Shown here piece by piece: positions 1 to 18,658 of a stretch of 23,743 bases of DNA. The translations under genes were made by a program, and so were the position numbers. A model generated the notes under the pieces. That model was given only the letters and a program-made list of their open reading frames with translations. It searched no databases and was not told the DNA's origin. How positions within the stretch are numbered: the stretch's first letter is position 1; every line of letters starts with the position of its first letter. Source of the DNA: a virus. The stretch spans positions 1 through 23,743 of the IMG/VR virus record IMGVR_UViG_3300032331_003198; one strand, written 5' to 3'.

Positions 1-1034
1 CTAGTTCCACTTGATGCGCTGCTTCCTGAAGTTCCACTTGAACCAGAAACTCCCGAAGAACCTGATGTTCCGCTTGAACCATTAGTTCCAGAAGTGCCAG
101 CCGAAGCTGAAGTTCCTGAGCTTCCTGATGAACCGTTAATTCCTGACGTTCCTGAAGAACCTGTTATTCCAGATGTTCCAGAAGATCCAGTTGTCCCAGA
201 AGATCCAGCAGAACCTGAAGCGCCTGAACTTCCTGAAGAACCATTTAATCCAGATGTTCCAGAAGATCCATTTGAACCAGATGTTCCTGAAGAACCTGTG
301 TTTCCTGATGTACCGCTGCTTCCAGAACTTGCGCTAGTTCCTGATGTTCCATTTGTTCCAGAAATTCCGCTACTTCCAGAAGTTCCACTACTAGCAGATG
401 TTCCACTGCTTCCTGATATTCCACTACTTCCTGATGTTGCGCTGCTACCTGAACTGCCAGAACTTCCAGAGCTTCCATTTATTCCTGAAGAGCCAGACGA
501 ACCATTAACGCCTGAAGTTCCAGAAGATCCTGTATTGCCTGAAGTTCCTGAAGTTCCTGTGGTTCCAGAGGTTCCTGAAGAACCTGATGTTCCTGAACTT
601 CCAAAGCTTCCATTTATTCCAGAAGTTCCAGACGAACCATTAATACCAGAAGTTCCTGAAGATCCTGTGTTACCAGAAGTTCCTGAAGATCCTGTAGCTC
701 CAGAGGTTCCTGAAGAAGCGGATGTTCCTGAACTTCCAGAACTTCCATTTATTCCCGAAGTACCAGAACTTCCATTTATTCCAGAAGTACCACTTGAACC
801 ACCTAGACCTGAAGTTCCTGAAGTACCACTTGATCCTGAACTTGCCGAAGAACCACTAGTTCCAGAACTTGCAGAAGATCCGGAAGATCCACTTATTCCA
901 GAAGATCCACTGCTTCCAGAATAGCCGCTTGTTCCAGAAGATCCACTTATTCCAGAAGATCCTGAAGCGCCATTAGATCCTGAAATACCACTTGATCCTG
1001 AACTACCTGATGTTCCCGGCAAACCGGGAGGGCC
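1..1034 (-). repeat. Degenerate 9-nt tandem repeat encoding Gly-X-Y triplets
   Basis: Codons GGA/GGT followed by Ser/Thr-rich pairs repeat every nine bases from 1034 to the window edge without any break of register. Common larger units read GTSGINGSS and GTSGNTGSS, which look like higher-order duplications about 18-36 bases long. Synonymous codons vary (TCT, TCA, AGT, AGC), so the array has been kept by selection on protein sequence rather than copied very recently. Confidence 0.9.
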
Positions 1035-1193
1035 TCTTTCAATAACAGTAGTAGATATAGTTGGCGGCGGAACAGATTGTACAATAACATTATTTTTATT
1101 TGTACTATCTGATGTTGCTATAGTAACACCACCAACAACTTCTACCTTTACTGCATTAGAATTTGAATCTACTTTTACATCAATATTCGCCAT
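1..1193 (-). CDS. Collagen-like Gly-X-Y repeat fibre protein, 5' part (runs off left edge)
   Basis: The minus strand is open from the ATG at 1193 to base 1 with no stop, giving 397 residues and no C-terminus. Residues 1-53 are a non-repetitive head beginning MANIDVKVDS, with a short Pro run (PPP, 42-44). From G54 to the edge the protein is an unbroken Gly-X-Y array that opens GPPGLPG and continues with GTS, GSS, GIN, GNT and GIS triplets, about two thirds Ser/Thr. It stays in register for about 115 triplets; eight triplets start with Ala instead of Gly (A108, A117, A159, A252, A267, A288, A363, A393). Such repeats form trimeric shafts in phage tail fibres and spikes, so a surface-exposed fibre is likely. 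The start lies one base after the stop of the upstream gene (TAA-A-ATG), indicating one transcript. The missing C-terminus would normally hold the tip or receptor-binding domain. The plus-strand Pro/Glu/Val-rich frame over this region is only the antisense of the repeats. Confidence 0.85.
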   Translation of the reverse strand, partial: MANIDVKVDSNSNAVKVEVVGGVTIATSDSTNKNNVIVQSVPPPTISTTVIERGPPGLPGTSGSSGSSGISGSNGASGSSGISGSSGTSGYSGSSGSSGISGSSGSSASSGTSGSSASSGSSGTSGTSGLGGSSGTSGINGSSGTSGINGSSGSSGTSASSGTSGATGSSGTSGNTGSSGTSGINGSSGTSGINGSFGSSGTSGSSGTSGTTGTSGTSGNTGSSGTSGVNGSSGSSGINGSSGSSGSSGSSATSGSSGISGSSGTSASSGTSGSSGISGTNGTSGTSASSGSSGTSGNTGSSGTSGSNGSSGTSGLNGSSGSSGASGSAGSSGTTGSSGTSGITGSSGTSGINGSSGSSGTSASAGTSGTNGSSGTSGSSGVSGSSGTSGSSASSGT

Positions 1194-1194
1194 T

Positions 1195-1524
1195 TTATAA
1201 TTGTGTTACATCTTGTTGTACATCTAATCTAAATTCGAATAAAGTACGATCCAAGATTCCTGTTGAATAAAAATGCAAATCACCATAAAGATTTATTGGC
1301 GGAAAACCTCTAGTTACTGATGATGGAATACTGAATTCTACAATTCCTGTTTTATAGTATCCAGTAACTACTGTTGGCACAAATTGATACAATAAATTTC
1401 CATCTGGGTGCGGTCTTAATTGACCAGTACAAACAATATTGGTAAAATCCAAAACATCAGAAGTTACAGTTACTGTTTGCGTTGGAAAAGTGTCTCCTCT
1501 TATAACTGATAACTGAATCGCCAT
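1195..1524 (-). CDS. Small beta-rich phage structural protein (BppU N-terminus-like)
   Basis: The 109-residue product starts MAIQLSVIRGDTF and is almost entirely predicted beta strand. The opening 'RGDTF' pattern, an internal 'GQLRPHPDG' turn and a closing 'RTLFEFRLDVQQDVTQL' strand recall the N-terminal beta-sandwich of baseplate/fibre adaptor proteins of the BppU type; this is a pattern match by eye only. I chose the ATG at 1524 because the longer frame from 1572 would start inside the terminator hairpin at 1561-1587. The gene sits directly upstream of, and one base from, the collagen-like fibre gene, which fits a fibre attachment or baseplate role. No Shine-Dalgarno is visible; GTGTAATAAATATCAA precedes the ATG. 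Confidence 0.6.
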   Translation of the reverse strand: MAIQLSVIRGDTFPTQTVTVTSDVLDFTNIVCTGQLRPHPDGNLLYQFVPTVVTGYYKTGIVEFSIPSSVTRGFPPINLYGDLHFYSTGILDRTLFEFRLDVQQDVTQL

Positions 1525-1560
1525 TTGATATTTATTACACGTTATATTAAATTTGGAGAC

Positions 1561-1587
1561 AAAAAAACCCAAGCTTTCGCTTGGGTC
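1561..1587 (-). terminator. Rho-independent terminator, minus strand
   Basis: Read on the minus strand, ACCCAAGC-GAAA-GCTTGGGT forms a perfect 8-bp stem (1567-1574 with 1579-1586) with a GAAA tetraloop. It is followed directly by seven T residues (1567-1561). It lies 17 bases after the stop of the 65-residue gene and before the ATG at 1524, so it should end or attenuate the transcript entering the fibre genes. A promoter for 1524 and the fibre gene would have to lie at about 1525-1566, or readthrough supplies them. Confidence 0.85.
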
Positions 1588-1603
1588 TTTGAATTATTTT
1601 ATA

Positions 1604-1801
1604 TTATTTAATGACTGGCAAATCTGGATTTACCACGCCATTACTAGAAGCTCCCGTGTTCTTTGCACGACTAGCTAGTTCCTGATTAATTAGTCGAAGA
1701 TTGGCCTGAGCCATTTCAATCTTACCTAGCTCATCATAAGCGAAAGCCTTGAGTTGAATGTCGCTAACTTGTGATAGATTTACTTGATTATTTTGTTCCA
1801 T
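1604..1801 (-). CDS. Small helical hypothetical protein (65 aa)
   Basis: The product begins MEQNNQVNLSQVSDIQLKAF. Its middle (about residues 8-45) is one predicted amphipathic helix with regular Leu/Ile/Ala spacing (IQLKAFAYDELGKIEMAQAN), followed by a Gly/Asn/Pro-rich tail. I cannot assign a function. Small helical proteins of this size are frequent among phage structural genes and may act as chaperones or minor virion components. It lies between the SAP-like gene and a strong terminator, 19 bases after the upstream stop. The leader is purely A/T-rich with no Shine-Dalgarno. Confidence 0.65.
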   Translation of the reverse strand: MEQNNQVNLSQVSDIQLKAFAYDELGKIEMAQANLRLINQELASRAKNTGASSNGVVNPDLPVIK

Positions 1802-1820
1802 AATTAGTTATTTATATATA

Positions 1821-2231
1821 TTATAGTTCTCCTAAAATTTTTAAAGTCTTTTTATGATCTGGATTCTTTGGATCTAAAACCATAGCAGGACTTTGAATAG
1901 TCATTGATAATGATCCTTTGTTATGAGATTTAAACTCACGAAACAATTTTTCTTTAATCTGTTGTCGCGAACCGCTTGGGAAAATGCCGATTCTATCGCA
2001 CAAACGCTGTAGATCGATCATAGTCATATCCGCCAACTTCTCCTTAAGAATTTCCAAATTAGTTGTGCCGAAAGGATTAAGCTTTTCCACGCCTAGCGCC
2101 AATTCTAGTTCTCTTATCCTCTTAATATCAGCATCTTCTTGAACCTTGCCATCTGCAAAAGTAAGATTGTCTAATTCTGAGGCGACAATTTCTGTAGGTT
2201 TAATTGCCTTATCTTTCTTCGATTTAGCCAT
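1821..2231 (-). CDS. Hypothetical protein with SAP-like helix-extended-loop-helix motif
   Basis: The 136-residue protein has a Lys-rich N-terminus and a charged helical region. Residues about 68-103 read LADMTMIDLQRLCDRIGI followed by PSGSRQQIKEKL. This matches the SAP motif: a helix with Leu pairs, a Gly-containing turn, then a basic helix. SAP motifs usually bind nucleic acid. The gene lies downstream of the capsid gene, past a strong terminator, so it is probably transcribed from its own promoter in the A/T-rich 2232-2264 stretch or by readthrough. A neck, head-completion or DNA-binding role is possible but unproven. The start is the only reasonable ATG; no Shine-Dalgarno. Confidence 0.6.
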   Translation of the reverse strand: MAKSKKDKAIKPTEIVASELDNLTFADGKVQEDADIKRIRELELALGVEKLNPFGTTNLEILKEKLADMTMIDLQRLCDRIGIFPSGSRQQIKEKLFREFKSHNKGSLSMTIQSPAMVLDPKNPDHKKTLKILGEL

Positions 2232-2264
2232 ATAATATAATATACAATAATAAAATAATTCAAT

Positions 2265-2294
2265 AAAAAAGGCGTTACCCTTTCGGATAACGCC
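2265..2294 (-). terminator. Rho-independent terminator after the capsid gene, minus strand
   Basis: On the minus strand GGCGTTA...TAACGCC pairs (2271-2277 with 2288-2294). An inner CC/GG pair closes a GAAAG loop, and six T residues follow (2270-2265). It begins 18 bases after the stop of the major capsid gene, so it should define the 3' end of the abundant capsid transcript. Confidence 0.88.
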
Positions 2295-2312
2295 TTCTTC
2301 GATATATTTAAC

Positions 2313-3485
2313 TTAGACGATTAGACCGACTAGAGCGCGGTTGTCGAGGACCATACGGCCTTCTTCAAGAGCGCCGAAGTAACCGATCTTGTTCTGACGG
2401 AGTGTGTACTGATCATCGGCAGTGAGTGTGAACTCAGAACCAGTATCAGAATCAACAGCTACGGCACGAACTAGAGAGTCACGGCTTCTGTCAAGACCAA
2501 CTACGATCTGTTCAGTTGTCTTGAAGGTTGTGCTGGAAGCAGCGATGCTGTAGTTATCAGCGAAAGTTACGCCACTGGCGACAGTGCTGAAGATTGTGTT
2601 GAATCGCTTACCGACACCGAGTTCAAGAATTTCCATGAGGGAAACACCATAGAACTCAGGAATACCAGCTTGGCTGAAGATTTGATTACGAACTGCATCA
2701 GGAGCAGCGATACCAACGTTACCAGCAGTCTGACCAGTAGAAGGAGAAGTAGAGTTAACTGGAGCTTGCTTGGTATTGATTGGGTTATAAGCCATACCGC
2801 GAATTTCTTCTATAATTTCAGGAGAAACTAGAAGATCGGTTAGACCACGACGAGCGCCTGAAGGAGTACCACCAACGAATGAAGCGTTGATACGCTTGAT
2901 CTTAGTGAACAACTTGTTCAAGTCGTTTAGCACGAAACGTCCAGCAGCAGCAGAACGGAAAACATGCAAGTTATCGGTAGCAGTACCGGAGTTACCAGTA
3001 GAAGCTTGAGCTAGAGCGGTCATGATGAGGTTAGCAGAAGTTCTTTCTTGCTTAAGCATAACTTCTTGAGCTACGCGAGTGAAAGACTTGCTAACTACGT
3101 CTAGACGGCTCTTGGCGGCGTACTTCTTATCGAAAGCTACAGCGCTGTCGAGGCGATAGGTAGCGATCTTCAATTCAGAAGCAGTAGGCTGAACGATGTT
3201 CTGAGGAAGACCACCGGGAACTGATTGGCTATAGACCTTGATGTAATCTTCATCGAAGATGTCATAATAGAGGTCTAGAGGAATTGAAGGATTATCTTCA
3301 GAGTTGTACTGAAGGCTGGTGAAAAGATTGGAAACAGTTGGAGCATTGTTGATAACTTCGGCTAGAACTGGACCAATGAATTCAGCCAAAGCTACTTGAG
3401 CTTCATAGGCTACTACATGGTTCTTTGAAGCCAAAGCTTTAATTAGCTCAACTTGTTCATCTGTTCTCTTTAAAACGATTTTCAT
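2313..3485 (-). CDS. Major capsid protein (HK97-fold, distantly T4 gp23-like)
   Basis: The 390-residue protein forms the icosahedral shell. Supporting features are: an N-terminal helical arm (about 1-50) with alternating charge; a central 'RRGLTDLLVSPEIIEEIRGM' segment of the kind found in gp23-type capsid proteins; and a C-terminal 'FGALEEGRMVLDNRALVG' stretch. It lies downstream of protease/scaffold and decoration genes and has its own terminator. It is shorter than T4 gp23 (521 residues). Its base composition is clearly higher in GC than its neighbours (32 of 60 bases in line 2341-2400), as expected for the most highly expressed gene. An N-terminal cleavage by the prohead protease is likely, but the site is not identified. 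The ATG at 3485 follows an A/T-rich leader without Shine-Dalgarno. Confidence 0.88.
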   Translation of the reverse strand: MKIVLKRTDEQVELIKALASKNHVVAYEAQVALAEFIGPVLAEVINNAPTVSNLFTSLQYNSEDNPSIPLDLYYDIFDEDYIKVYSQSVPGGLPQNIVQPTASELKIATYRLDSAVAFDKKYAAKSRLDVVSKSFTRVAQEVMLKQERTSANLIMTALAQASTGNSGTATDNLHVFRSAAAGRFVLNDLNKLFTKIKRINASFVGGTPSGARRGLTDLLVSPEIIEEIRGMAYNPINTKQAPVNSTSPSTGQTAGNVGIAAPDAVRNQIFSQAGIPEFYGVSLMEILELGVGKRFNTIFSTVASGVTFADNYSIAASSTTFKTTEQIVVGLDRSRDSLVRAVAVDSDTGSEFTLTADDQYTLRQNKIGYFGALEEGRMVLDNRALVGLIV

Positions 3486-3504
3486 ATTATTGTTAGATTA
3501 AAAA

Positions 3505-4173
3505 TTAGAGAGCGGTTGGGTTGACACAATCAATTTGAACTAGAGCGAACTTACCAGTAGTTGTACCGGCGAAGTAATCGTTCTTACCATTTTGGCTAGA
3601 GCGTGAACCAGTAGCCAATACTCTTCCGATAGCTGTATATTGTCCAGTAGTTGGGCTTTGGAAACTAGCAGCCAATCCTGAAACCTTACCAGCGTTAAGG
3701 GACACGACCAAGTGTGAATTTGGAACCATGTTTGCATCAACCCAGTCGATAGCTGTATCGGCTAGGGTGAACATACCGCGACTAGCTACTGGTACGGCCT
3801 GACCAGAGAGAACGGCTTGAAGCTCTTGTCTCTTGATTGGGTTATAAAGTAGCTTGATTCCGTTTTCGTCTTGTAGCAATGTTTGATTGAGCGTAACACC
3901 AAGAACAGGAACACCTGTGGTGGCCGCAGTGAATGTCAAAGGAACGGATGGATACTGAGCAGCGCCCAAGAAGGGGTAGTCAGTCTTACCGAGATAAGAG
4001 TTAGCAGCATAAGTAATAGGATCTAGGTCCATATTACCGGCTGAAACCTTAACGAATACGCCTTGACTTCCGTTGCCGTTATCAAATGGCGTTGTGTCGG
4101 CGGTATCACTTGCAAACAAGTTGATAACGTCGAACTCACTATATTGTCTGAATGGATATAATCTTAGTGACAT
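3505..4173 (-). CDS. Probable capsid decoration / head stabilisation protein
   Basis: This 222-residue, Gly/Ala/Thr-rich, beta-strand protein lies between the scaffold and the capsid gene, a usual place for decoration proteins. Its second half has the order 'SRGMFTLADTAIDW', 'LNAGKVSGLAASF', 'YTAIGRVLATGS' and 'GKFALVQIDCV'. This resembles the DUF2190-type trimeric decoration fold, in which a Gly-Met-Phe strand, a Gly-Lys-Val turn and an 'iGra' strand recur. It shares the raised GC of the capsid and scaffold genes, suggesting high expression. No signal peptide or transmembrane segment is seen. Alternatives are a minor capsid or vertex protein. It starts six bases after the stop of the upstream protease-scaffold gene. 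Confidence 0.55.
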   Translation of the reverse strand: MSLRLYPFRQYSEFDVINLFASDTADTTPFDNGNGSQGVFVKVSAGNMDLDPITYAANSYLGKTDYPFLGAAQYPSVPLTFTAATTGVPVLGVTLNQTLLQDENGIKLLYNPIKRQELQAVLSGQAVPVASRGMFTLADTAIDWVDANMVPNSHLVVSLNAGKVSGLAASFQSPTTGQYTAIGRVLATGSRSSQNGKNDYFAGTTTGKFALVQIDCVNPTAL

Positions 4174-4179
4174 AGTAGT

Positions 4180-4893
4180 TTAAAATTTTATTGTTATATT
4201 GTCTTTGCTGAAAGCTTTGCTGAGTCTTTCTTTCCAAGAAGGAGCGGTTTCAGTAGGAGTAATGCTCTGTTGTGGTGCGAGCGCATCTTCTGGCTTGGCA
4301 TTTGCGAGAGCAGTCTCAACTTCAACAGTAGTTTTTACTGAAGCATCAGCTTTTTGACTTGGCATCTTAGCCATTCTCTTAGCGATTTCAGATTCTACTT
4401 TTTCTTGGAAAGCTTTATCTTGCTGTGCCTTGAAAGCCTTATTCTTATGCTTGTAAAGAACAGCGACCTTATTTTTGAATGAAGCGAAGGCTTCATCAGA
4501 TTTGTCAAGGGCGGACATCTCACTAGCCAATAGTTGACGATCAGAATCATCAAACTCATATTCACTGTCGAGAGAAGCCATTCTTGAACTAAAAATTTCT
4601 TGAGAAGCTTGTGTAGAAATTACGGTTTCCAATTCTTGTAGCTTGGCAATTGTTTCATTAAGCTTCTTATTATTCTCCTCAAGATCGGTATGTAGTTTTT
4701 CAGCGCGAGCGATAGCTTCGGCTTTAGCATTTTCAGAGTTAATCAATTCAGCCTTGATTTCGTCGCTCTTGTTTTTAATTTTTTCAGCGATCTGTGCAGA
4801 GATACTCGCAACAGATTCTTCGCTGAAGTTTACGGTTTCTTGCTTTTCAGCGAGAACCGTCTTCATTGCGGATATAATTTGTTCTAAATCCAT
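4180..4893 (-). other. Possible internally initiated scaffold protein (237 aa) inside the fusion
   Basis: An in-frame ATG at 4893 (M293, MDLEQIISAM) coincides with the start of the helical scaffold half. It is preceded by an A-rich leader (CCAAAACTAAAACT) like the leaders of the separate genes here. GC content jumps at about this point: roughly 32% by hand count in line 5401-5460 of the protease half against 45% in line 4201-4260 of the scaffold half. The higher value matches the capsid and decoration genes. This suggests a separately translated, abundant scaffold, as with lambda C/Nu3. It is inference without expression data. Confidence 0.4.
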
Positions 4894-5769
4894 AGTTTTA
4901 GTTTTGGTATTATTTACAGGTATATTTGAAGTTTGTGAAAGTTTTTTATTAATAAGATTTAACAAAGTCGAAGAATTTACTTCGATTGATTCTGTTTCTT
5001 GTTCATTGTCTTCGTTTTCTTTAGTAATAGTCTCGCCATTATCAATTATAACACCTTGAACATCGGCGGCTGGATTTGTTGTAAAAGCGATACCTAAAGG
5101 ATAAATTCTTCCAGTTACCAAACGATAAACTGGAGTACCATCATCCATAAAACCAGAACCACTGAATCCCTTTAAATATTTTTTGAATTCACCGATTTGT
5201 TCTTTTTTACTAATGATTTCAGCGTCTTTTAAATTATCACTACCGATAGCAATTAAATAATCGTTAAAACCAATTTCCCAACTGGCGCTTATTCTTTGAT
5301 ATAAATTTGATATTGGATCGTTTGAATTAATTAATGCGTCAGCAAAATCTCTATCAACTGATTTATAAACAACAGCCGCCAAACCAATATTAAATGGATT
5401 AAATTGTTGAACTACTTGATTAACATCTAGAATTTGATTGTCTCCGTAAGAAGTGAAAGCGGCATTAACAATATGCCCAACGACTTTGTTTCTCTTGTGT
5501 TCAATGTTTGTTGGCTTATGAATAAAATAATCTTTAAAAGCAATAGCTGTATCAGTGTCAATACCATCACCATTTTTATTAAACTTATTTACAACTGCGG
5601 CATTAAATGCGGCTCCAACTAAATCAATATTTTTATTCAAATCAACATTTGAAGGAATAATAGATCTTAAAGACTCAAGCGAAGCTTGAGACAATACCAT
5701 CTTCTTATCAAAATTTGAAGAAGCTGATACGACGTTATCAAATGTTGTTCTATATTGAAATCTAGACAT
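4180..5769 (-). CDS. Prohead protease fused to coiled-coil scaffold protein (gp21-gp22-like)
   Basis: The 529-residue product appears to combine maturation protease and internal scaffold. Residues about 45-245 look like a prohead serine protease (S78/T4 gp21 type). They include a candidate catalytic His in 'NIEHKRNKVVGHI' (H91), a candidate Ser in 'RISASWEIGF' (S161 or S163), and a closing 'PLGIAFTTNPAAD' strand comparable to the 'SlVt-PA' end of these proteases. Residues 246-292 are a charged, Asn/Thr-rich linker. From M293 onward the protein is helical and Glu/Lys/Ala-rich with a long coiled coil (about 325-385) and a Lys-rich C-terminus, as in scaffold proteins. In T4 these are separate genes, although protease-scaffold fusions with internal restart are known in lambda-type phages. 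It sits between portal and decoration/capsid genes. Confidence 0.75.
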   Translation of the reverse strand: MSRFQYRTTFDNVVSASSNFDKKMVLSQASLESLRSIIPSNVDLNKNIDLVGAAFNAAVVNKFNKNGDGIDTDTAIAFKDYFIHKPTNIEHKRNKVVGHIVNAAFTSYGDNQILDVNQVVQQFNPFNIGLAAVVYKSVDRDFADALINSNDPISNLYQRISASWEIGFNDYLIAIGSDNLKDAEIISKKEQIGEFKKYLKGFSGSGFMDDGTPVYRLVTGRIYPLGIAFTTNPAADVQGVIIDNGETITKENEDNEQETESIEVNSSTLLNLINKKLSQTSNIPVNNTKTKTMDLEQIISAMKTVLAEKQETVNFSEESVASISAQIAEKIKNKSDEIKAELINSENAKAEAIARAEKLHTDLEENNKKLNETIAKLQELETVISTQASQEIFSSRMASLDSEYEFDDSDRQLLASEMSALDKSDEAFASFKNKVAVLYKHKNKAFKAQQDKAFQEKVESEIAKRMAKMPSQKADASVKTTVEVETALANAKPEDALAPQQSITPTETAPSWKERLSKAFSKDNITIKF

Positions 5770-5780
5770 AATATATAAAA

Positions 5781-7814: not shown

Positions 7815-7860
7815 ATCTATTATAGTTACACATCATGACTTTGAAAGTGACTTTTTAACT

Positions 7861-9726
7861 TTATCCAATAAACATAGGCTCAAACGTATAAGCATCTTCG
7901 TCTATTTGAAAAGCTTGTAGATCAAAATAGATTTTTGCCATCCAATTACCCAAAACTAATGCTGAATAACTATCTTTTCTTGGTTTATCAGGTCCAGATT
8001 TACGTTTTAAATTAGGTGGTAGATCAAAATTCTGCATACCTTGAGCAGAAGTTGTGATCTGTATAAGAGCGCATTCTGTCTTTGTTAACAATATCATGTC
8101 CGATAAATGTTCAACGAAATCAATCATTTTAGCTTCTTCGTTTTCTTTTTCGCTATCTAACATGTTAGAGAATTTTAAATTTGATATTCCGATATGCTTA
8201 CGAGTTTGACTTCTAAAGCTGTCATCAATAGCTCTACTAGCAAAGAAAATACGACGATGATCGAAATTAGCTTGCAACAATTCATTTGCTAAACGTATCC
8301 AACTTGAAGTAGGTTTTCTTAAAAATACATATCTGAAATCAGACTTATTATATTCTGATTTGGCGGTAAGAATATTTTGATTATACTCTTCTGGACGTTC
8401 AAACTCAGTTGCTATCGGTTTTAAATTGATATTAGCGTCGATGAAAACTTCGCTTTCATTACAAGAATTCATAAACTGTACGCCACCGTTATAGTCCATA
8501 CATATAGCGACAACATTGAAGTTTTGAAGCACATATAGAAAATATTTAATATGATCTTTTAATGATGATCCAGAAAGAGCATAAGAATGTACCAATGTTG
8601 CAATTTGTTTTTCTCTATTTATTTTTAATATTTGAATAGCAAAATCATCAGAAGATTCTGTTTCTGACCAAGAAGGATCAACTGAAACTATATACTCTTC
8701 GCCAGCAGCGCCTACAACTTCTACACAAGGCATTTCTCCATCTGGAACCGTACATAGAGCCATTTTAGATATTTTAAAATATCCAGAACTATCATCTGTA
8801 AACTGAGCGCCAAACTCTCGCAAAAACTGAGATTCACTCATTGTTGCTTTTGCTTGATTTATAAGATTTTGATCATACAACTGAACAGGAGCGCAATCAT
8901 ACGAAAACTGCATAACACATCTTTTTGACGAGTCTGCTTTTTTAGGATTAAATATCAAATTATCGTATTGCTCGTAAAGTTTATATAAATATTCAAATTT
9001 AAAAGATGCAGAAGATAGTGCTATCAATTTATTATTAGGCCATTGATAACGGTCCTCCTCAGTCATTTCTCCTTTTTCAATCAACTTTGTTTCTATGTTA
9101 TAAAGTTCTTCGCGCTGAGTAGGATTTTGCACTACAGACAAGAATGGCACTATAACTTCATTATAAATACGCTCAGGCATTAATAAAAACTCGTCAATAA
9201 TAATACGATGAAAGCGAAAACCACGAAGCTTTTCGCCGTCGCCTAATGGCAGCGCACGAATACGGCTTTTACCAATCTCCATTACCCATTCATCATTAGA
9301 CTTCGATATCTTTGTAATACATTGTTTTAAAAGATAGGCTTCAGGCTTCGCAGCAATGTCTTCTATCTTCTTGAATATCATTTTTGACTGACGAAACGAA
9401 CGCGATAAAATACCAGTCTCAACTCCTTGATTTAAAATAGCATCAAGTACAGCATAAATACCAGTGGTATAAGACTTACTCATACCACGCGACCATACTC
9501 CTAGAAAATAATCGCTTTCCAACATACCTTTGATAGCCATATGTTGAAATGGAAACAGTTTCACTCCAGTTATTAAATCTGTTGTGAAAGTTGTGTTATT
9601 TCTTAAGAATTGATAGAACAGCAACTTAGCTTCTTTTTCTTCAAGAAAACCTTCTTTCTTGAGAAGCTCTTCATTGCTGATTAGATAATTCTTTCTTTGT
9701 TTCTGACTGCCAGTTTCCCAACTCAT
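7861..9726 (-). CDS. Terminase large subunit (packaging ATPase-nuclease)
   Basis: The 621-residue motor protein contains both expected domains. In the ATPase domain a Walker A-like loop reads WSRGMSKSY (about 78-86), with Ser where the usual Gly precedes the Lys, and Walker B reads RIIIDEF (174-180). In the RNase H-fold nuclease the acidic residues are D350 (VSVDPSW), D411 (CMDYNGG) and D585 (RKDSYSAL). Length and domain order match T4 gp17 (610 residues). The ATG at 9726 lies inside the 3' end of the upstream nuclease gene (56-base overlap). The next in-frame Met is beyond residue 60, past the conserved start, so the overlap appears real and suggests translational coupling. Confidence 0.92.
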   Translation of the reverse strand: MSWETGSQKQRKNYLISNEELLKKEGFLEEKEAKLLFYQFLRNNTTFTTDLITGVKLFPFQHMAIKGMLESDYFLGVWSRGMSKSYTTGIYAVLDAILNQGVETGILSRSFRQSKMIFKKIEDIAAKPEAYLLKQCITKISKSNDEWVMEIGKSRIRALPLGDGEKLRGFRFHRIIIDEFLLMPERIYNEVIVPFLSVVQNPTQREELYNIETKLIEKGEMTEEDRYQWPNNKLIALSSASFKFEYLYKLYEQYDNLIFNPKKADSSKRCVMQFSYDCAPVQLYDQNLINQAKATMSESQFLREFGAQFTDDSSGYFKISKMALCTVPDGEMPCVEVVGAAGEEYIVSVDPSWSETESSDDFAIQILKINREKQIATLVHSYALSGSSLKDHIKYFLYVLQNFNVVAICMDYNGGVQFMNSCNESEVFIDANINLKPIATEFERPEEYNQNILTAKSEYNKSDFRYVFLRKPTSSWIRLANELLQANFDHRRIFFASRAIDDSFRSQTRKHIGISNLKFSNMLDSEKENEEAKMIDFVEHLSDMILLTKTECALIQITTSAQGMQNFDLPPNLKRKSGPDKPRKDSYSALVLGNWMAKIYFDLQAFQIDEDAYTFEPMFIG

Positions 9727-10627
9727 GATCGATAAAATATTGTATATCTACTTGCCACAGTGACTTACCATGATATAAAATTTTAGGTATTATATCCACA
9801 GATTTGTTTCTGCTACCCGTAAATATGAATTGAACATGTCTTGGATATTTATGCGTAAGATGGCGCATATTATGAAAAACATATTCTAAATTTGTTTTGC
9901 GTTTGTATTTCTTGTGGTTATCAATTATTTGATCAATACTGCTTTCTATAACCACGAATAAATAAGCGCCTAATCCACAAGCTCTTTCTATTTCTCTATC
10001 AAATCTTTCTACTCCAGAAGCTAGAGTGCCAAGAAAATCGTTCTCGCTCTTTCTATCTACAAATGTATAACTATAGTTGCCATCGTTTAATAAATAATCG
10101 CCAACATAAAGTTTTTCAACTTTATACTTAGCAAACGTAAGAGGATCTTGTTCTCTAGTATCTATTAAAATTTCTTTATTTCTAAGATTAACATCATTAA
10201 AATTTTTTGGCATATTCATATTAAACAAAGGCTCTTTATTCAACAACTTACAAGCAGCGCTATAAGATCCGAAATGTTTTTTATAAATAGATATCTCTGG
10301 CAGATTTAAAGTAAGCAGTTCATTATGAAATGGGGCATATATATAATTCTTTTCAGAAATTCTTTTCTCTAATATTTCTAAACATTTACTACGAACGATT
10401 TCCTTGCTGCTGCTTCTTTCCCACATTTCGAATTCCAACTTATCAAGAAATTCAGTCGCAAAATATTCCTTCTTATTACGAAAAGGAATTTGCTCTTTGT
10501 AGTATAAAGACTTACGAGGATAATGAGTGCAATAATATTCAGCTTGATAAATATTGTGTTTCTTTAAATGAGCGTGAAAAGACTTATCGTTACTATATTC
10601 TTCGTTACAGATTTTGCAGCTAATCAT
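9671..10627 (-). CDS. C2H2 zinc finger plus ERCC4 (XPF/Mus81)-type nuclease
   Basis: The 318-residue protein starts with a classical zinc finger (C4, C7, H20, H24). A middle helical region follows (about 55-145), then an ERCC4-type nuclease core: IDTREQ (155-160), VGDYLL (175-180) and VDRKSENDF (190-198). These correspond to the D-x-RE, GD and ERK-x3-D motifs of XPF/Mus81 nucleases, with Asp replacing Glu in ERK. Such enzymes cut branched or flapped DNA. The gene lies inside the packaging operon: it overlaps the upstream gene by 4 bases (ATGA) and the terminase by 56 bases. A role in resolving recombination or replication branches before packaging, as T4 endonuclease VII does, is a reasonable inference. 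A mobile or homing nuclease is the alternative, made less likely by the tight overlaps. Confidence 0.8.
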   Translation of the reverse strand: MISCKICNEEYSNDKSFHAHLKKHNIYQAEYYCTHYPRKSLYYKEQIPFRNKKEYFATEFLDKLEFEMWERSSSKEIVRSKCLEILEKRISEKNYIYAPFHNELLTLNLPEISIYKKHFGSYSAACKLLNKEPLFNMNMPKNFNDVNLRNKEILIDTREQDPLTFAKYKVEKLYVGDYLLNDGNYSYTFVDRKSENDFLGTLASGVERFDREIERACGLGAYLFVVIESSIDQIIDNHKKYKRKTNLEYVFHNMRHLTHKYPRHVQFIFTGSRNKSVDIIPKILYHGKSLWQVDIQYFIDHELGNWQSETKKELSNQQ

Positions 10628-11694
10628 ATAGCATCTTGTTTAGAAATGCCTAAAATTCTAGCTTTCCAAGATGACATGTTCTCAAGTCTATCTGCTTCTT
10701 CGTTGATAATTTTCTTTTGCATTTCAGCGATTTGAATCATCATTTTCCTTTCTTGTTCGTCTTGAAAAAGTTCAACAAGATTAATGATAGAAGCATTTTT
10801 TTGCTGATGTTGTTCTACACGCTTAGATCGTTCACCATTTAACTTTTGAATACTCTTATCAATACGACTAGCACATTGATTATATTCTTCACTGATTGTC
10901 TTTAACACCTCAGTTAAACGCATAGTTAGATCTTTTTGCTCCTGAGTGTCATTGAACATGTCATTGACTTTGTTCTTTTTAATATCAATCTGTCTAAGAT
11001 TAATATAATCCATACAAACATTTATATACAAATTAATTTCGTCAGTTGTTAAATCTGGCTTATCCCAAATCGAACGAACAAACTCCGCTTCGAATAAATC
11101 TTTATCTGTAGAACTGGTATAAGAATCGTAATTGCCTACAAATCGTGGACTAGCTAAATAAACCAACAATTTTTCTAACCACTTCCGATGTTGTAAAGAC
11201 AGCTTATCTTCACTAATGCTTTGACCACACCATTTATTTACTTTGTTGATTACAGTTTTAATAGAACGAGGAACTGAATACTTTTCACCAATTCCTGATT
11301 CATTATCCACTAAATTATCTGGATATTTTTCTTTAACATATTTATGAACAGCGCGATACTCTGGAGTGTTAAAAACATTTACATTCTCAAGACCCAAAAA
11401 CTTTTCATGAAATATTAATTCTGTAATCTGTTTTGGAGTAATACCTGTCTTTATATTTTGATCTATAAACTCAAAATGATTTTGATTAAGTATATCAGTA
11501 GCTTGAATAAGCTTAGGCTTTTCTTTCTTAGATACAAAACCGCTAGATACTAAATAATCTCTTACAGCTTTTGCTTCTTTAGAACGACCAGTTAAATCGT
11601 CGCGACCAAAAATAAGATTAGCAATAACTACATAATCATTTTGTCCTTCTTCAATTTTTTTAGCGATTAATGTTTTATGTTGATCGGTTAACAT
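10624..11694 (-). CDS. Putative small terminase subunit (HTH repeats plus coiled coil)
   Basis: The 356-residue protein has no clear family signature that I can name. Its N-terminus holds two similar segments (about 5-53 and 72-128). Each has the order helix, 'I..LIF', a variable loop, then 'AVRDYL' or 'AVHKYV', which looks like a duplicated helix-turn-helix. The C-terminal 120 residues are highly charged and predicted coiled coil (KTISEEYNQCASRIDKSIQK). DNA-binding N-terminus, helical oligomerisation region and position just upstream of nuclease and large terminase suggest the small terminase subunit, though it is larger than usual (T4 gp16 is 164 residues). The start follows the sigma gene by one base (TAA-T-ATG) and the end overlaps the nuclease start (ATGA). 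Confidence 0.5.
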   Translation of the reverse strand: MLTDQHKTLIAKKIEEGQNDYVVIANLIFGRDDLTGRSKEAKAVRDYLVSSGFVSKKEKPKLIQATDILNQNHFEFIDQNIKTGITPKQITELIFHEKFLGLENVNVFNTPEYRAVHKYVKEKYPDNLVDNESGIGEKYSVPRSIKTVINKVNKWCGQSISEDKLSLQHRKWLEKLLVYLASPRFVGNYDSYTSSTDKDLFEAEFVRSIWDKPDLTTDEINLYINVCMDYINLRQIDIKKNKVNDMFNDTQEQKDLTMRLTEVLKTISEEYNQCASRIDKSIQKLNGERSKRVEQHQQKNASIINLVELFQDEQERKMMIQIAEMQKKIINEEADRLENMSSWKARILGISKQDAI

Positions 11695-11695
11695 A

Positions 11696-12791: not shown

Positions 12792-12802
12792 GCATTATTA
12801 TA

Positions 12803-13552: not shown

Positions 13553-13579
13553 GTTATTAATTGAGTTACACTATATTGT
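13553..13579. promoter_or_regulatory. 27-bp divergent intergenic region
   Basis: This is the only divergent gene pair of the window and separates the packaging series (minus) from the plus-strand glycosyltransferase series. It is A/T-rich (TATATT at 13572-13577) and carries AGTTACAC (GTGTAACT on the minus strand). Both leaders must be extremely short or the promoters must lie inside the neighbouring coding sequences. No confident -35/-10 pair can be placed. Confidence 0.4.
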
Positions 13580-14626
13580 ATGGTTTTTCACTGTTTAGGT
13601 ATAGGTTATGCACCAACTAACAAAGATATTTCATTATGTGCGTTTGTGCAGAAAGTTTACAAGTTCTGTAACGAAATGACCAAGAGAGGTCATACTGTTT
13701 ATCATTACGGTCATGAAGATTCTATTGTAAATTGTACTGAACATATCACTGTTACTAATAATGATATATTAAAAACTAGTTATGGCAACTTAAATAGTTG
13801 GAAAGAAAAAGGTTTCGATCAAAATGTAAATAATAAAGCATTTGAAATCTTTAATAGCAATTGCGTGATAGAAATAAATAAAAGATTAAAAAGCAATAAT
13901 GAATTTATACTATGCTGGTTTGGATTTGGAAATGAAAGATGTGTTGAACATTTTTATAATAAAGCTATAGTAGTAGAAGCGAGCATTGGTTACGACAGCA
14001 TGTTTGCTCCAGTTAAAATATTTGAAACATACTCTCACATGCACAAAATGCATGGCAGTTGTAAAACTGAAATAAATTTCGGTTTAGAAGATGTGGTTTA
14101 TCCCGGTTTTGATTCTGATGATTTCTTATATAATAGCAAAAAATCAGAAACTGCTTTATTTTTAGGTAGAGTTAATGAAGCTAAAGGGGCCAAGTTAGTA
14201 TACGATATATGCAATCATGTAAAACAAGATATTATTTTTGCCGGACCTAATTTAACAAATCTTACAGATACAAAATACTGCAAATTCATTGGTTTTGTCG
14301 GTCCTAAAGAAAGAAAAAGCCTTTTAAGCGAAGCTAAATACCTTTTTGCGCCATCATTATTTATTGAGCCTTGCAATTGGACTGTAATTGAAGCTCAATT
14401 TTCAGGCACACCGACAATCACCACCAACTTTGGCGGATTTACTGAAACTGTAGTTCAAAATAAAACTGGCATACGATGCTCAGATATAAATTCAATGATA
14501 TCTACTGCTCAAAATATTAGTAAATTAATTGATCCTCAAGATTGTTATAATAATGCATGTTCAAAATTCACCTTGCAGCAACAATGTGATAAATATGAAA
14601 TTTTATTTAAATCATTGATTGGATAA
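13580..14626 (+). CDS. GT4-family glycosyltransferase (GT-B fold)
   Basis: The 348-residue protein has the two Rossmann-like halves of a GT-B enzyme. The C-terminal half carries 'FLGRVNEAKGAKL' (194-206; nucleotide-sugar phosphate contacts), 'IIFAGPN' (218-224), 'FIGFVGPKERKSLLSEAKYL' (236-255) and an E-x7-E motif (E263/E271, IEPCNWTVIEA), all hallmarks of GT4. It probably transfers a sugar from a nucleotide donor to a glycan or lipid; the sugar cannot be predicted. There is no signal peptide or membrane helix, so it is cytoplasmic. It opens a short plus-strand series of three genes and is 13 bases from the next start. The region is very A/T-rich. Confidence 0.88.
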   Translation: MVFHCLGIGYAPTNKDISLCAFVQKVYKFCNEMTKRGHTVYHYGHEDSIVNCTEHITVTNNDILKTSYGNLNSWKEKGFDQNVNNKAFEIFNSNCVIEINKRLKSNNEFILCWFGFGNERCVEHFYNKAIVVEASIGYDSMFAPVKIFETYSHMHKMHGSCKTEINFGLEDVVYPGFDSDDFLYNSKKSETALFLGRVNEAKGAKLVYDICNHVKQDIIFAGPNLTNLTDTKYCKFIGFVGPKERKSLLSEAKYLFAPSLFIEPCNWTVIEAQFSGTPTITTNFGGFTETVVQNKTGIRCSDINSMISTAQNISKLIDPQDCYNNACSKFTLQQQCDKYEILFKSLIG

Positions 14627-14639
14627 ATATTATATAAAA

Positions 14640-15479
14640 ATGACAACTAAAAATGTAATTAATAATAATAACGAACTTGATCCTCATGGAATTACATTAA
14701 CAATGACATGCTGTAAAAGATTACATCTTTTTAAAAAGACTATTAAGTCTTTTCACGAACATTGTTTAGATAAAAGTCTGATTGTTCAAATTATTATTTA
14801 TGATGATAATTCTAAAACAGAAGATAGATTTGAAATGGAAAAACAAATTGCAACTCTATTTCCTAATACAAATGTTTTTTATAAATATTTTTCCGAAATA
14901 CCAACAAAATATCGTCATGCTTACATAATGCAAAATTGGTACGATGATATAAAAACTGATTTTGTTTTTCACTTAGAAGATGATAGATTAATGATTAAAT
15001 CATTTTATTTATTTGAAATGGTGGATATTCTTAAAAGAGATAAAGATGTAGGTATTGTAAATATCGATCAAACAAAAAGAAATTTCCCTAAAGATTTAAT
15101 AGAAAAATATAATCTTGTAATTGATTATAATAAAAATGCAAATTATTGGGTATGGCCTTATATCAAAAGCCTCAAATGCGGCGAAATTCTTTTTTATGAT
15201 ACTGTTAGATGCGAAGAAGGTTCTAAAGAATATGGGTTTCCTTATTACGAACAATTTATTAATTATGCTGGCTTTTGTTTGCAGCCGTGCGTTATGGATA
15301 TGAGAAAGATAAAAACAATAGAAAAATTTAGATTAAATAATTCACTAGAAGCTGATTTTGGAATGAGATATTCTGAAAAATATATAACAATTTGCCACAA
15401 TGAATCAAAATCAACTCATTTAGGAGTTCCTTGGTTTCAAGAAAAATCAGCTTACGAAATGAATGACTCTAATAGATAA
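14640..15479 (+). CDS. GT-A glycosyltransferase (GT2-like)
   Basis: The 279-residue protein begins MTTKNVINNNNELDPHGITL. After a short polar lead, the GT-A core appears: ITLTMTCCKRLHLFKKTI (18-35), a nucleotide-binding IIIYDDNS (51-58), and HLEDDRLM (111-118), whose acidic pair is the metal-binding DxD equivalent. A later His near the end ('STHLGVPWF') may complete the active site. The tail is Tyr/Lys-rich with no membrane helix. I chose ATG 14640 rather than an in-frame TTG at 14619, which overlaps the previous gene. The gene lies one base before the cytidylyltransferase start, so both are probably co-translated. Confidence 0.75.
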   Translation: MTTKNVINNNNELDPHGITLTMTCCKRLHLFKKTIKSFHEHCLDKSLIVQIIIYDDNSKTEDRFEMEKQIATLFPNTNVFYKYFSEIPTKYRHAYIMQNWYDDIKTDFVFHLEDDRLMIKSFYLFEMVDILKRDKDVGIVNIDQTKRNFPKDLIEKYNLVIDYNKNANYWVWPYIKSLKCGEILFYDTVRCEEGSKEYGFPYYEQFINYAGFCLQPCVMDMRKIKTIEKFRLNNSLEADFGMRYSEKYITICHNESKSTHLGVPWFQEKSAYEMNDSNR

Positions 15480-15480
15480 T

Positions 15481-15888
15481 ATGACTACAGCATACACAAA
15501 TGGAGTTTATGATTTATTTCATGTTGGACATGTTAATTTATTCAGAAGAGTAAAAGAAAATTGCGACAAACTTATTGTAGGAGTTCATAATGATGAACAG
15601 GTATTTAGTTATAAAAATAAGAAACCTACCATTAGTTATAATGATAGGTTGGAAATGATTCGTTCTTGTAAATATGTTGATGAAATTTATGAAAATGCTG
15701 TACTTATAACAACTGATGATGTTTTATTAAAACTAAATGCTGATTGTATTTTTGTCGGAAGAGAAAATGAAGAGTTCATCAAAAAATTTTATCCAGTAAG
15801 TATCCATAAATTAAAACTTTTAGAGAGAACCAGCCATATCTGCTCTTCACAAATTATAAAAAAAATAATTAACAATCATAATATTTGA
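15481..15888 (+). CDS. CTP-type nucleotidyltransferase (phosphocholine/phosphoethanolamine cytidylyltransferase-like)
   Basis: The 135-residue enzyme is a minimal cytidylyltransferase fold. It shows TNGVYDLFHVGHVNLF with the HxGH motif (H14, H17), DKLIVGVHNDE (29-39), the 'R-x-x-M' plus 'YVDEI' segment (56-69), and a C-terminal RTSHICSSQIIKKI (116-129) matching the RTxGISTSxII signature. The 'YVDEI..NA' spacing and 'GVHNDE' resemble eukaryotic-type CCT/ECT and LicC/TagD-like enzymes, which make CDP-choline, CDP-ethanolamine or CDP-glycerol. ADP-heptose synthase (HldE C-domain) is a related but less similar alternative. The ATG at 15481 gives the usual short lead before the motif; ATG 15463 is a possible longer start. 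Its 3' end overlaps the convergent LicD gene by 20 bases, and LicD would use its product. Confidence 0.8.
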   Translation: MTTAYTNGVYDLFHVGHVNLFRRVKENCDKLIVGVHNDEQVFSYKNKKPTISYNDRLEMIRSCKYVDEIYENAVLITTDDVLLKLNADCIFVGRENEEFIKKFYPVSIHKLKLLERTSHICSSQIIKKIINNHNI

Positions 15889-16627
15889 TATTATTTTTTA
15901 TTAGATAATTAATGAAATCCTTATAAATTAAAATTTTAGATTCATCAGAGACGCTTATTCTTGAACTGTCAAAAATATTTATTTTTTTATTGTCAATATC
16001 TTTGCAATTTCTTTTAACGACAACTGATTTGAAAAATAGTTTAAGATTTTCTACTTGAAAATCCACTATATCATAATTACTGTCAGATGTGTAGAAAACG
16101 CATTCTGTTGCATGTAAATGATCGCCACCTTTTAAATTCGGATAATAAGAATCTTTTGGCGACATATAATCTCCATAAACTCCTTTTAAAAATATATCCG
16201 GTCTATAGAATGTATAAAATTCTTTATTTTCTAAAATAACTTTTGAAGGTTTAAATGTTTGAAAACTATGTATTTTTTCATTCATCCATGAAATATCTTT
16301 TATATAATAATTCAAATATCTTCTTGAGTAAACAAACAGATCGACCTTTTGTTTTTCATCTCCACTCAAATGCAAAGAAATAAAAAAATCATTTTTTGTC
16401 CAAGTGAATGTTGGTGCATAAGTGCATGAAATGTTTAAGATTTTATCTATATCTTCTTCATTTGTTATAGCAAAATCTATATCATCAGATAATAAGACAC
16501 CATTATCTCTTACTGTATTAATTAAAGACCCGCCAATTAAAAAACAATCAATCCCATTTTCTAATAAATTGTTTTGAATTAATTTTGCGAATTCTATATA
16601 TATTGTTTTACTTGGAACTGTTGTCAT
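15869..16627 (-). CDS. LicD/fukutin-family phospho-alcohol transferase
   Basis: The 252-residue protein carries the LicD pattern: 'CFLIGGSLINTVRDNG' (28-43), then 'LLSDDIDFAI' (45-54) with the Asp pair that binds metal, a third Asp in 'KVDLFVY' (94-100), and 'YRPDIFLKGVYGDYMSP' (141-157), corresponding to the 'yL...YGdWm.P' motif. LicD proteins transfer phosphocholine or related groups from CDP-alcohols onto sugars; fukutin relatives transfer ribitol-phosphate. The adjacent convergent cytidylyltransferase would supply the CDP donor. ATG 16627 places the motif at the usual distance; ATG 16696 would give a longer overlap (89 bases) with the upstream gene. Even the chosen start overlaps that gene by 20 bases. 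The transferred group cannot be read from sequence. Confidence 0.75.
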   Translation of the reverse strand: MTTVPSKTIYIEFAKLIQNNLLENGIDCFLIGGSLINTVRDNGVLLSDDIDFAITNEEDIDKILNISCTYAPTFTWTKNDFFISLHLSGDEKQKVDLFVYSRRYLNYYIKDISWMNEKIHSFQTFKPSKVILENKEFYTFYRPDIFLKGVYGDYMSPKDSYYPNLKGGDHLHATECVFYTSDSNYDIVDFQVENLKLFFKSVVVKRNCKDIDNKKINIFDSSRISVSDESKILIYKDFINYLIKNNIKYYDC

Positions 16628-17471
16628 ATAATTCTGAAATACATTTATCAATTTTTTCTTTAACTTGTTCAAAAGATATAGTTTTTGTGCATTCAAAATC
16701 CTTGTTTCTTGGACAATAAATCCAATGACCTACAATTCCCTTTACGTTATCTATATTGCTATCATTAAGACATCCATTACAAACATTTTTATTTATAACT
16801 CTATAACAATTTTTCTTAAATTCATTATCTTCGGCAGTGCATCCAGAAATCATTATTACTTTTTTATTTAAAGCCCATGCTAACCATGACAAACCGCTGC
16901 TAAGGCCAATAAAAAAACTACAATTTTTAATTTGCTGTATTCTATAATCAATAGGATAATTTCCAGTTTCATTAATTGCTCCATCTGGAATTTTATTCCA
17001 TTTATCTTTAAGACCAAATATCTCATCTCTATCTATGGCATAGACATCATAATTCAATTTTTTAAGATAACGAACAACTTTTTGCCATCCAACACCATTA
17101 TTCCAATATTTCATTTGAGAAGTAGAATGTACGCTGATACAAACGTATTTTTTCTTTTTATTGAAAGAATGTTTACTAGTTGTATTTATTAATGGAATTA
17201 ATTCTTCATAATCTAAACCTAAAGCATCACACGCAATTTTTTGCATTGGACCTTCTCTGAATATAAAATGAATATCTTTTACAATATCGTAATTATCTTC
17301 ATGATCAAGACCTACAAAAAAAACATTTGTGTTATCTGTATAAAATAAAAAATGCCATTTGGTTTTTACATACACTTGACCACCATATTTTTTTTGATAA
17401 GCGTCTGCATAAATAGAGAAAGCAATATTGTCTCCCAAACTATGAGTTACAAAATTTATTAAAGTCTTCAT
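16608..17471 (-). CDS. TibC-like (BAHT) O-heptosyltransferase, short form
   Basis: The 287-residue protein is a shortened paralogue of its upstream neighbour. The shared GT9/GT-B core is clear: 'CISVHSTSQMKYWNNGVGWQ' (111-130), 'DVYAIDRDE' (142-150), 'FFIGLSSGLSWLAWALNK' (186-203) and 'VIMISG' (205-210). The C-terminal four-Cys iron finger of bacterial autotransporter heptosyltransferases is present (C231, C234, C253, C261). Members of this family add heptose to Ser/Thr in repeats of autotransporter adhesins. It lacks the N-terminal domain of the longer neighbour and starts directly at a 'SLGDNIAF' donor-domain loop (11-18). It overlaps the longer gene by 4 bases (ATGA). Acceptor and sugar are unproven; ADP-heptose is the family precedent. 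Confidence 0.82.
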   Translation of the reverse strand: MKTLINFVTHSLGDNIAFSIYADAYQKKYGGQVYVKTKWHFLFYTDNTNVFFVGLDHEDNYDIVKDIHFIFREGPMQKIACDALGLDYEELIPLINTTSKHSFNKKKKYVCISVHSTSQMKYWNNGVGWQKVVRYLKKLNYDVYAIDRDEIFGLKDKWNKIPDGAINETGNYPIDYRIQQIKNCSFFIGLSSGLSWLAWALNKKVIMISGCTAEDNEFKKNCYRVINKNVCNGCLNDSNIDNVKGIVGHWIYCPRNKDFECTKTISFEQVKEKIDKCISELYDNSSK

Positions 17472-18658
17472 TTCTTAAGATCCGATATGCAAGCATCTAT
17501 TTTTTCTTTAACCATGTCAAATGTTATCGATTTAGTGCATTCAAAAATTCTTTCGTCATTTTTATGTTCTGGACACCATAACCAATCTCCAGCATTAAAT
17601 TCGTATTTAGTGTTGTTCCAACAACTATTGCAAACTTTATTATTATGAACGCGGTATTGTGTATAAAATTCAGCTTTAGGATCTGAAAAACCAGATATTA
17701 ATATTACAGGTTTTTTACAAGCCCAAGCTAACCAAGAAAGACCTGATCCCAAACCTATAAAAAAATCACAATTATAAAGATCACTAATTCTTTCAGATAA
17801 ATCTATTTTTCCAGTTTTATCTACACAGTTTTTAGGGATGCTATTAAAATTATTATTTGCACCAAAGGTATGTTCTTTATCGATGCATATGACTTTATAG
17901 CCTAAAGAATTTAGATAATCGACCACTTGCTGCCAACCGCTTTCATGGTTCCAATATTTTGCTTGCGCTGTACTATGAGTAGCGATACAAACGGTTTTTT
18001 GTTCAGAATTATTATTTAATATCGGTTTAATAAGCTCAGGAGCATTATTATCATAAGATAATCCTAATATTTCATTTGCTACATCGCTTAAAGATAAAGT
18101 CCTCCAATCTTTAGCGCAGTTTTCACTTGGCCCACACGGCCTGAAACAACCAATCTTATAAACGTAAATATACTTATTAGTATCAGCTTCAAAAAAATTA
18201 AAGAAATTTATATTCTTATAAAACGATTTATCAAAAATTTCATGAATAGTACAGTAGTAATCAACTATGCAATTATGTTTTTCTTGAAATTTTTTTATCG
18301 AATCCATCCATGCAATTGTATCTCCTAGAGATCCAGAATCATTAATTATGCAAACTTTTTGATTTTTAAGATCTAAATTTATTTCATTATAATAAGATTC
18401 AGATTTAATTTTTATTTTCCAAGGAACGTAATATTTTACATTACATGATGTCCACATATTATTATTAATTGTGGTAGAATGAACTAATGTAGAATTACTT
18501 TTATCTTCAAATGAAATTTCGTAATTTTCTTTCAATGCCCCAACAATTTCAACAAAAGGACCATTTTTAAAACCTATATTGATTATATTTTTTTGTTTTA
18601 AAATAGGCTGTATTTTAAAAGACGTTTCAAAATAATTTTTTAATAATTGTTCTTTCAT
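17468..18658 (-). CDS. TibC-like (BAHT) O-heptosyltransferase, full length
   Basis: At 396 residues it is close to the family length (TibC about 406). The N-terminal BAHT domain is present (about 25-90: 'NGPFVEIVGALKENYEISF', 'STTINNNMW', 'KYYVPWKIKIKS'). It is followed by the 'NDSGSLGDTIAWMDSIKKF' loop (106-124), a core 'CIATHSTAQAKYWNHESGWQ' (224-243), 'FFIGLGSGLSWLAWACKKPV' (299-318) and the iron-finger Cys C343, C346, C362, C374. These enzymes glycosylate Ser/Thr-rich repeats of surface proteins, usually as large oligomers. The tandem short paralogue downstream suggests duplication, possibly a hetero-oligomer or two specificities. It overlaps the GT4 gene by 4 bases (ATGA). Confidence 0.88.
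   Translation of the reverse strand: MKEQLLKNYFETSFKIQPILKQKNIINIGFKNGPFVEIVGALKENYEISFEDKSNSTLVHSTTINNNMWTSCNVKYYVPWKIKIKSESYYNEINLDLKNQKVCIINDSGSLGDTIAWMDSIKKFQEKHNCIVDYYCTIHEIFDKSFYKNINFFNFFEADTNKYIYVYKIGCFRPCGPSENCAKDWRTLSLSDVANEILGLSYDNNAPELIKPILNNNSEQKTVCIATHSTAQAKYWNHESGWQQVVDYLNSLGYKVICIDKEHTFGANNNFNSIPKNCVDKTGKIDLSERISDLYNCDFFIGLGSGLSWLAWACKKPVILISGFSDPKAEFYTQYRVHNNKVCNSCWNNTKYEFNAGDWLWCPEHKNDERIFECTKSITFDMVKEKIDACISDLKK

Follow-up and report, generated by a model that had tools for sequence, protein, structure and literature searches.

Does a phage that carries both a collagen-like fibre gene and BAHT-type glycosyltransferase genes glycosylate its own fibre? The question is raised by the IMG/VR record IMGVR_UViG_3300032331_003198, a tailed-phage fragment analysed here over its entire length of 23,743 bases (the window), in which the collagen-like gene lies at one end and a glycosyltransferase cluster at the opposite end. 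A phage-encoded O-glycosylation module acting on the phage's own fibre is judged here to be quite likely, with heptose probably serving as the sugar. An earlier, sequence-only reading of the same DNA had raised this idea, and it is supported by genomics through a two-way association between the genes, its specificity for serine/threonine (Ser/Thr)-rich collagen, gene adjacency and the presence of heptose-donor genes. The direct observations concern the enzyme family, its conserved residues, the Ser/Thr repeat, the association, the adjacency and the donor genes in other BAHT phages.

BAHT genes of the window

The two BAHT genes lie in tandem on the minus strand and overlap by 4 bases. BAHT2 (17468..18658) encodes a full-length homologue of the Aah/TibC-type O-heptosyltransferases, N-terminal domain included, covering positions 9-372 of the curated TIGR04414 profile (327.9 bits), and BAHT1 (16608..17471) encodes a second paralogue without the N-terminal beta-barrel, covering positions 168-373, the last ~55% of the profile (212.9 bits); both exceed the curated threshold of 200 bits. 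The sole solved-structure match of each protein is TibC (PDB 4RAP; 3e-69 for BAHT2 and 5e-43 for BAHT1). The TibC residues Asp110 (catalytic) and Thr226, Lys230, Arg286 and Trp305 (donor site), named in PMC4358343, are identical in both proteins in the alignment. All four iron-finger cysteines are also present in each, which confirms the tandem TibC-like pair with full cysteine sets described in the sequence-only reading, and the four-Cys finger is kept in 236 of 241 phage BAHT homologues.

Deletion of the N-terminal beta-barrel abolishes TibC activity (PMC4358343). The AlphaFold2 model of the barrel-less BAHT1 (predicted local distance difference test, pLDDT, 79) has TibC as its top PDB match (template modelling score 0.80), with low confidence over the iron-finger stretch 232-260. 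Because TibC protomers function as back-to-back dimers, BAHT1 may act together with BAHT2. Members of the BAHT family form dodecamers and use ADP-heptose as the donor. No autotransporter partner gene was found among the scanned proteins of the window, which is a contig fragment.

Collagen-like fibre gene

The proposed acceptor is encoded by a minus-strand gene (3..1193) that is open at the contig end and was recognised by Pfam Collagen (155.5 bits, 3e-46) and by its composition. Its product begins with an N-terminal domain of ~53 amino acids, after which the G-X-Y register continues up to the contig end through at least 114 complete triplets, the first residue being Gly in 106 of the 114 and Ala in 8, with 81% Ser/Thr and 1.3% Pro at the X and Y positions. 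The collagen-like, Ser/Thr-rich nature attributed to this repeat from sequence alone stands, while the figures given with it, 115 triplets and two thirds Ser/Thr, do not. Judged by the periodicity of collagen-like proteins, the fibre belongs with them; judged by the Pro-rich X and Y positions of collagens, it does not. A standard triple helix is doubtful for this repeat, because of the eight Gly-to-Ala triplets and the near absence of Pro. A G-X-Y chain without proline is expected to form a weak triple helix, and a triple helix can be stabilised by glycosylated Thr.

Two relatives (G003 and G004) carry a homologous N-terminal domain and a GTS repeat at the same location, and a third (G001) has a different N-terminal domain with the same type of repeat. 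A plus-strand open reading frame (ORF) at 1-924 was rejected as a gene, being the antisense shadow of the fibre repeat. The GTS/GSS repeat is a frequent contig break point in phages (window 1-1034; G001, G003, G004, G008, G011, G012, G016 and others), and such fibres are therefore under-represented in assemblies.

Co-occurrence of BAHT and collagen genes

BAHT genes were called with TIGR04414 (cut-off 200 bits) and collagens with Pfam Collagen (cut-off 27.2 bits). The BAHT records were picked by a motif around FECTK and then confirmed by profile, the random controls were picked by an arbitrary 14-mer, and the FkbM control comprised 44 records that encode an FkbM methyltransferase and lack BAHT. 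Collagen was found in 35 of 50 motif-chosen BAHT records (30 above the cut-off) and in 22 of the 23 that were at least 50 kb long, against 1 of 50 random records (none above the cut-off, and none with BAHT) and 3 of 44 FkbM controls; two FkbM-chosen records that turned out to hold BAHT both had collagen. For the record set nearest to the window, collagen above the cut-off was present in 25 of 50. Collagen counts are lowered because many contigs stop inside the repeat, as the window does, and so hide their collagens. The Fisher p-values for the collagen of BAHT records (1e-13 against random records, 2e-10 against FkbM records without BAHT), like all those obtained here (1e-13 to 3e-4), overstate certainty, since the records were not dereplicated and are not independent.

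The association was strong in the reverse direction as well. BAHT was present in 19 of 47 records with Ser/Thr-rich collagen, a few of which hold other collagen types, and in 17 of the 23 that reach 50 kb, against 1 of 50 records with Pro-rich collagen (p 1.5e-6), and in BAHT phages nearly every collagen has 60–94% Ser/Thr. The co-occurrence in related phages that the earlier reading had proposed to look for is thus found both ways. A link of collagen with glycan-modifying genes generally was rejected by the FkbM control, and a link of BAHT with any collagen by the Pro-rich control.

Both controls bear on the view that the glycosyltransferases, BAHT included, remodel host surface polysaccharide or lipopolysaccharide during infection, for instance excluding other phages, with the collagen fibre merely adjoining them in a variable region of host-interaction genes. 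Although this is the published reading for the pelagimyophage glycosyltransferases, whose variable region also holds fibres (PMC7029224), and although the GT4, GT2 and FkbM genes are compatible with it, we regard it as unlikely: FkbM phages without BAHT seldom have collagen, BAHT does not follow Pro-rich collagen fibres, and the characterised BAHTs modify Ser/Thr of proteins (PMC4358343).

The BAHT and Ser/Thr-collagen genes are directly adjacent, 0–119 bp apart, in L264, L494, L509, L515, L646 and L816, and are 417 bp apart in L010. In the complete, cultured Microcystis phage Mel-JY01 (L011/L045, PP395634.1), a single BAHT gene and a single collagen ORF (2-3049, plus strand, open at the record start) were found, separated by 1.7 kb. 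The GenBank annotation at this ORF consists of antisense hypothetical proteins (1-651 and 739-2298, minus strand) and a short C-terminal coding sequence. Such direct adjacency would not be predicted if the acceptor of BAHT were a different virion protein, for example a beta-helical tailspike, and collagen correlated with it as part of the same adsorption apparatus; nor would the dependence on the Ser/Thr content of the collagen. This alternative draws on the beta-helical structure of the known acceptors (PMC4358343) and on the phage LR756504, in which BAHT is accompanied by Ser/Thr-rich strand-type repeats and no collagen, and it too seems improbable to us.

The large terminase subunit (7861..9726, minus strand; phrog_2, 1.2e-25) served as the lineage marker for comparison among close relatives. 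In the window lineage (terminase 83–89% identical), BAHT and collagen are both present in 6 of 6 loci that are long enough, whereas in the sister lineage (64–71%) neither occurs within about 10 kb in the 15 long-enough loci, which retain the terminase and mostly also a capsid or PhoH homologue. This contrast probably reflects a single evolutionary event. That BAHT and Ser/Thr-rich collagen are functionally unconnected marks of large aquatic phages with shared ancestry is very improbable, since, even though one event can account for the joint loss in the sister lineage and the records are not independent, in a tree of 55 BAHT domains those from collagen-bearing records are scattered through the major phage branches (13 changes of label among the phage rows), gene orders and fusions vary, and the collagen N-terminal domain varies among relatives while the repeat persists.

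In the same tree, 11 bacterial rows fall together on one side of a branch with a support of 100, and TibC position 300 is mostly Gly in phage BAHTs and Ser in the bacterial set. The view of BAHT as unusual for a phage is borne out by GenBank, where 4 of 50,697 phage records have it (Mel-JY01 plus three records of huge phages). Environmental contigs contradict it: BAHT is carried by at least 486 contigs of IMG/VR, and rarity in phages as such was rejected. Two large records (G205 and G235) have two BAHT genes each above the cut-off. A nominally bacterial contig from a Winogradskyella metagenome-assembled genome (MAG; L163, JABDKL010000107.1) holds BAHT and Ser/Thr-rich collagen and may be phage DNA binned into that MAG; in three Lentisphaeria MAGs (L170, L179 and L195), bacterial BAHT is located near Glu/Lys-rich (GEKGDR-type) collagen genes.

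Sugar donor

Among the 105 loci of the motif set with confirmed BAHT, 26 have a split HldE beside this gene, against 0 of 120 random and 0 of 119 FkbM loci. In these 26 loci, a kinase of ~250 amino acids, best matched by heptose-7-phosphate kinase (RfaE domain I), follows shortly after BAHT, and in the loci that were read, a protein of ~130 amino acids between BAHT and the kinase is best matched by heptose-1-phosphate adenylyltransferase (RfaE domain II). These phage HldE-type proteins are divergent, given their scores under the equivalog cut-offs. Separate adenylyltransferase and kinase genes forming a compact split HldE beside BAHT are located at L572:3966-5092, L577:5572-6697, L592:3162-4296 and L609:1083-2218; BAHT, both HldE parts and Ser/Thr-collagen are consecutive in L572. 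A 529-amino-acid protein encoded upstream in L577 (298-1884) is HldD-like in appearance.

The position of the split HldE beside BAHT in other phages suggests ADP-heptose as the donor of phage BAHTs, and the host may supply ADP-heptose to the window phage. The Gly at TibC position 300 was considered as a sign of a non-heptose donor, which is not supported, because HldE-linked BAHTs also carry Gly (19 of 21 scored).

Neighbouring genes

The other glycosyltransferases listed in the sequence-only reading are also present. The plus strand carries a GT4 glycosyltransferase, GT4a (13580..14626; Pfam 7.6e-14), and a weak GT2-like gene (14619-15479). On the minus strand, a GT4-type glycosyltransferase, GT4b (18655..19593; Pfam Glycos_transf_1, 1.2e-9), overlaps the start of BAHT2 and is flanked by a multidomain protein combining GT4, FkbM methyltransferase and GT2 parts (19593..23633; Pfam/NCBIfam). 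GT4b homologues are found in 51 of 84 BAHT loci, where they frequently adjoin BAHT or are fused to it, as in a 735-kb phage, and the GT4 and FkbM parts of the multidomain protein recur in 56 and 49 of the 84 loci, respectively. At the same time, GT4a probably lies outside the fibre module, since it is kept in several sister-lineage loci without BAHT or collagen.

Besides the terminase, the window encodes PhoH, an ERCC4-type nuclease and a sigma-factor-like protein. The gene at 15463-15888 (plus strand) was rejected as a heptose-1-phosphate adenylyltransferase, because ethanolamine-phosphate cytidylyltransferase is by far the better match (PDB 3elb, 1.9e-28). Facing it is a gene at 15869-16696 (minus strand) that is LicD-like by eye (GGSLINTVRDNGVLLSDDIDF...YGDYM) and gave no Pfam and no PDB match; the two are perhaps a phosphoethanolamine/phosphocholine decoration pair, and neither was matched in the close relatives L003-L008. 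Additionally, a small FkbM-like gene lies in two of these relatives (L003:13360-14022; L006:10997-11662) between the homologue of window 10624-11694 and the ERCC4 nuclease, and is absent from the window.

Proposed fibre glycosylation

According to the proposed mechanism, BAHT2, possibly assembled with BAHT1, which has no barrel, into a mixed complex, would attach the first sugar to Ser/Thr of the fibre G-X-Y repeats during infection, the transferred sugar most likely being heptose from ADP-heptose. GT4b may then lengthen the fibre glycan, as may the GT4-FkbM-GT2 protein, which may also O-methylate it. The sugar would probably stabilise and shield a proline-free stalk that otherwise makes a poor triple helix; a mucin-like glycosylated stalk is a possible alternative form. 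Shielding, stiffening and altered host binding were the effects that the earlier reading put forward as possible. The genomic evidence supports the fibre as the candidate acceptor; like this role, heptose as the sugar of this phage, a place of the fibre in the virion and the purpose of the modification are inferred.

Several points weigh against such a mechanism. A glycan on the fibre and a virion location of the fibre are predicted here from gene content, and the BAHT acceptors characterised to date belong to the beta-helical autotransporters and not to the collagens (PMC4358343). HldE-type heptose genes were not found in the window fragment or in Mel-JY01 by the search used. The contrast between the window and sister lineages may be one event, and shared ancestry may explain part of the association. 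Moreover, the 636-kb phage LR756504 has BAHT and no collagen, G266 has BAHT alongside a collagen of just 17–23% Ser/Thr, and 6 of 23 large Ser/Thr-collagen records have no detected BAHT. A further exception is G111 (53 kb), with BAHT, an HldE-like kinase and no collagen; from LR756504, G111 and G266 it follows that other acceptors exist or that the collagen repeat is not the sole acceptor.

The characterised BAHT enzymes of the TibC–TibA and AAH–AIDA-I systems heptosylate Ser/Thr in repeats of autotransporter adhesins (PMC4358343). The window BAHTs belong to the same family and do not differ in the catalytic, donor-site or iron-finger residues, and here too the BAHT gene often adjoins the gene of an acceptor, known or proposed, whose Ser/Thr lie in a repeat. 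The differences are that the enzymes are phage-encoded and, as phage BAHTs, stand apart from the bacterial representatives in the tree and at position 300, that a collagen-like G-X-Y repeat takes the place of a beta-helical autotransporter as the proposed acceptor, and that one window paralogue has no barrel. Mimivirus similarly encodes low-proline collagen-like proteins and an enzyme, L230, that glycosylates them, as is proposed here for the window phage; unlike the window BAHTs, L230 works by hydroxylating Lys and glucosylating hydroxylysine, and the enzyme, chemistry and host are unrelated (PMC9614988). Phage-encoded glycosyltransferases are likewise tied to virion-protein glycans in the mycobacteriophages Che8 and Rita, but in the account cited in PMC11256854 these concern capsid proteins and other glycosyltransferases, and neither BAHT nor a collagen repeat is reported. 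The closest genomic parallel in layout, glycosyltransferases and fibres in one variable region, is offered by the pelagimyophage host-recognition clusters, which hold glycosyltransferases, rfaE genes and collagen-repeat proteins; the authors of that study interpret the glycosyltransferases as modifying the host O-chain and draw no BAHT-collagen link (PMC7029224).

No earlier report of a phage BAHT-collagen link was found in a literature search confined to openly licensed papers. The BAHT family itself is known; what would be new is that phages use it to glycosylate protein, on what is proposed to be a new acceptor. We consider it an evenly balanced possibility that this is a widespread and hitherto undescribed protein O-heptosylation system of large aquatic phages, in which sugars would replace the stabilising role of hydroxyproline on a proline-free Ser/Thr collagen and the BAHT group would be distinct from the bacterial one and partly provided with its own ADP-heptose genes. 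Few cases of protein glycosylation by phages are known. If the proposed fibre glycosylation is true, hundreds of environmental phages would share an enzyme and an acceptor that are both defined, together with a likely donor; the puzzling proline-free collagen repeat would be explained, a cultured test phage would be available in Mel-JY01, and the glycosyltransferases of such phages, BAHT at least, would target the virion and not the host surface alone.
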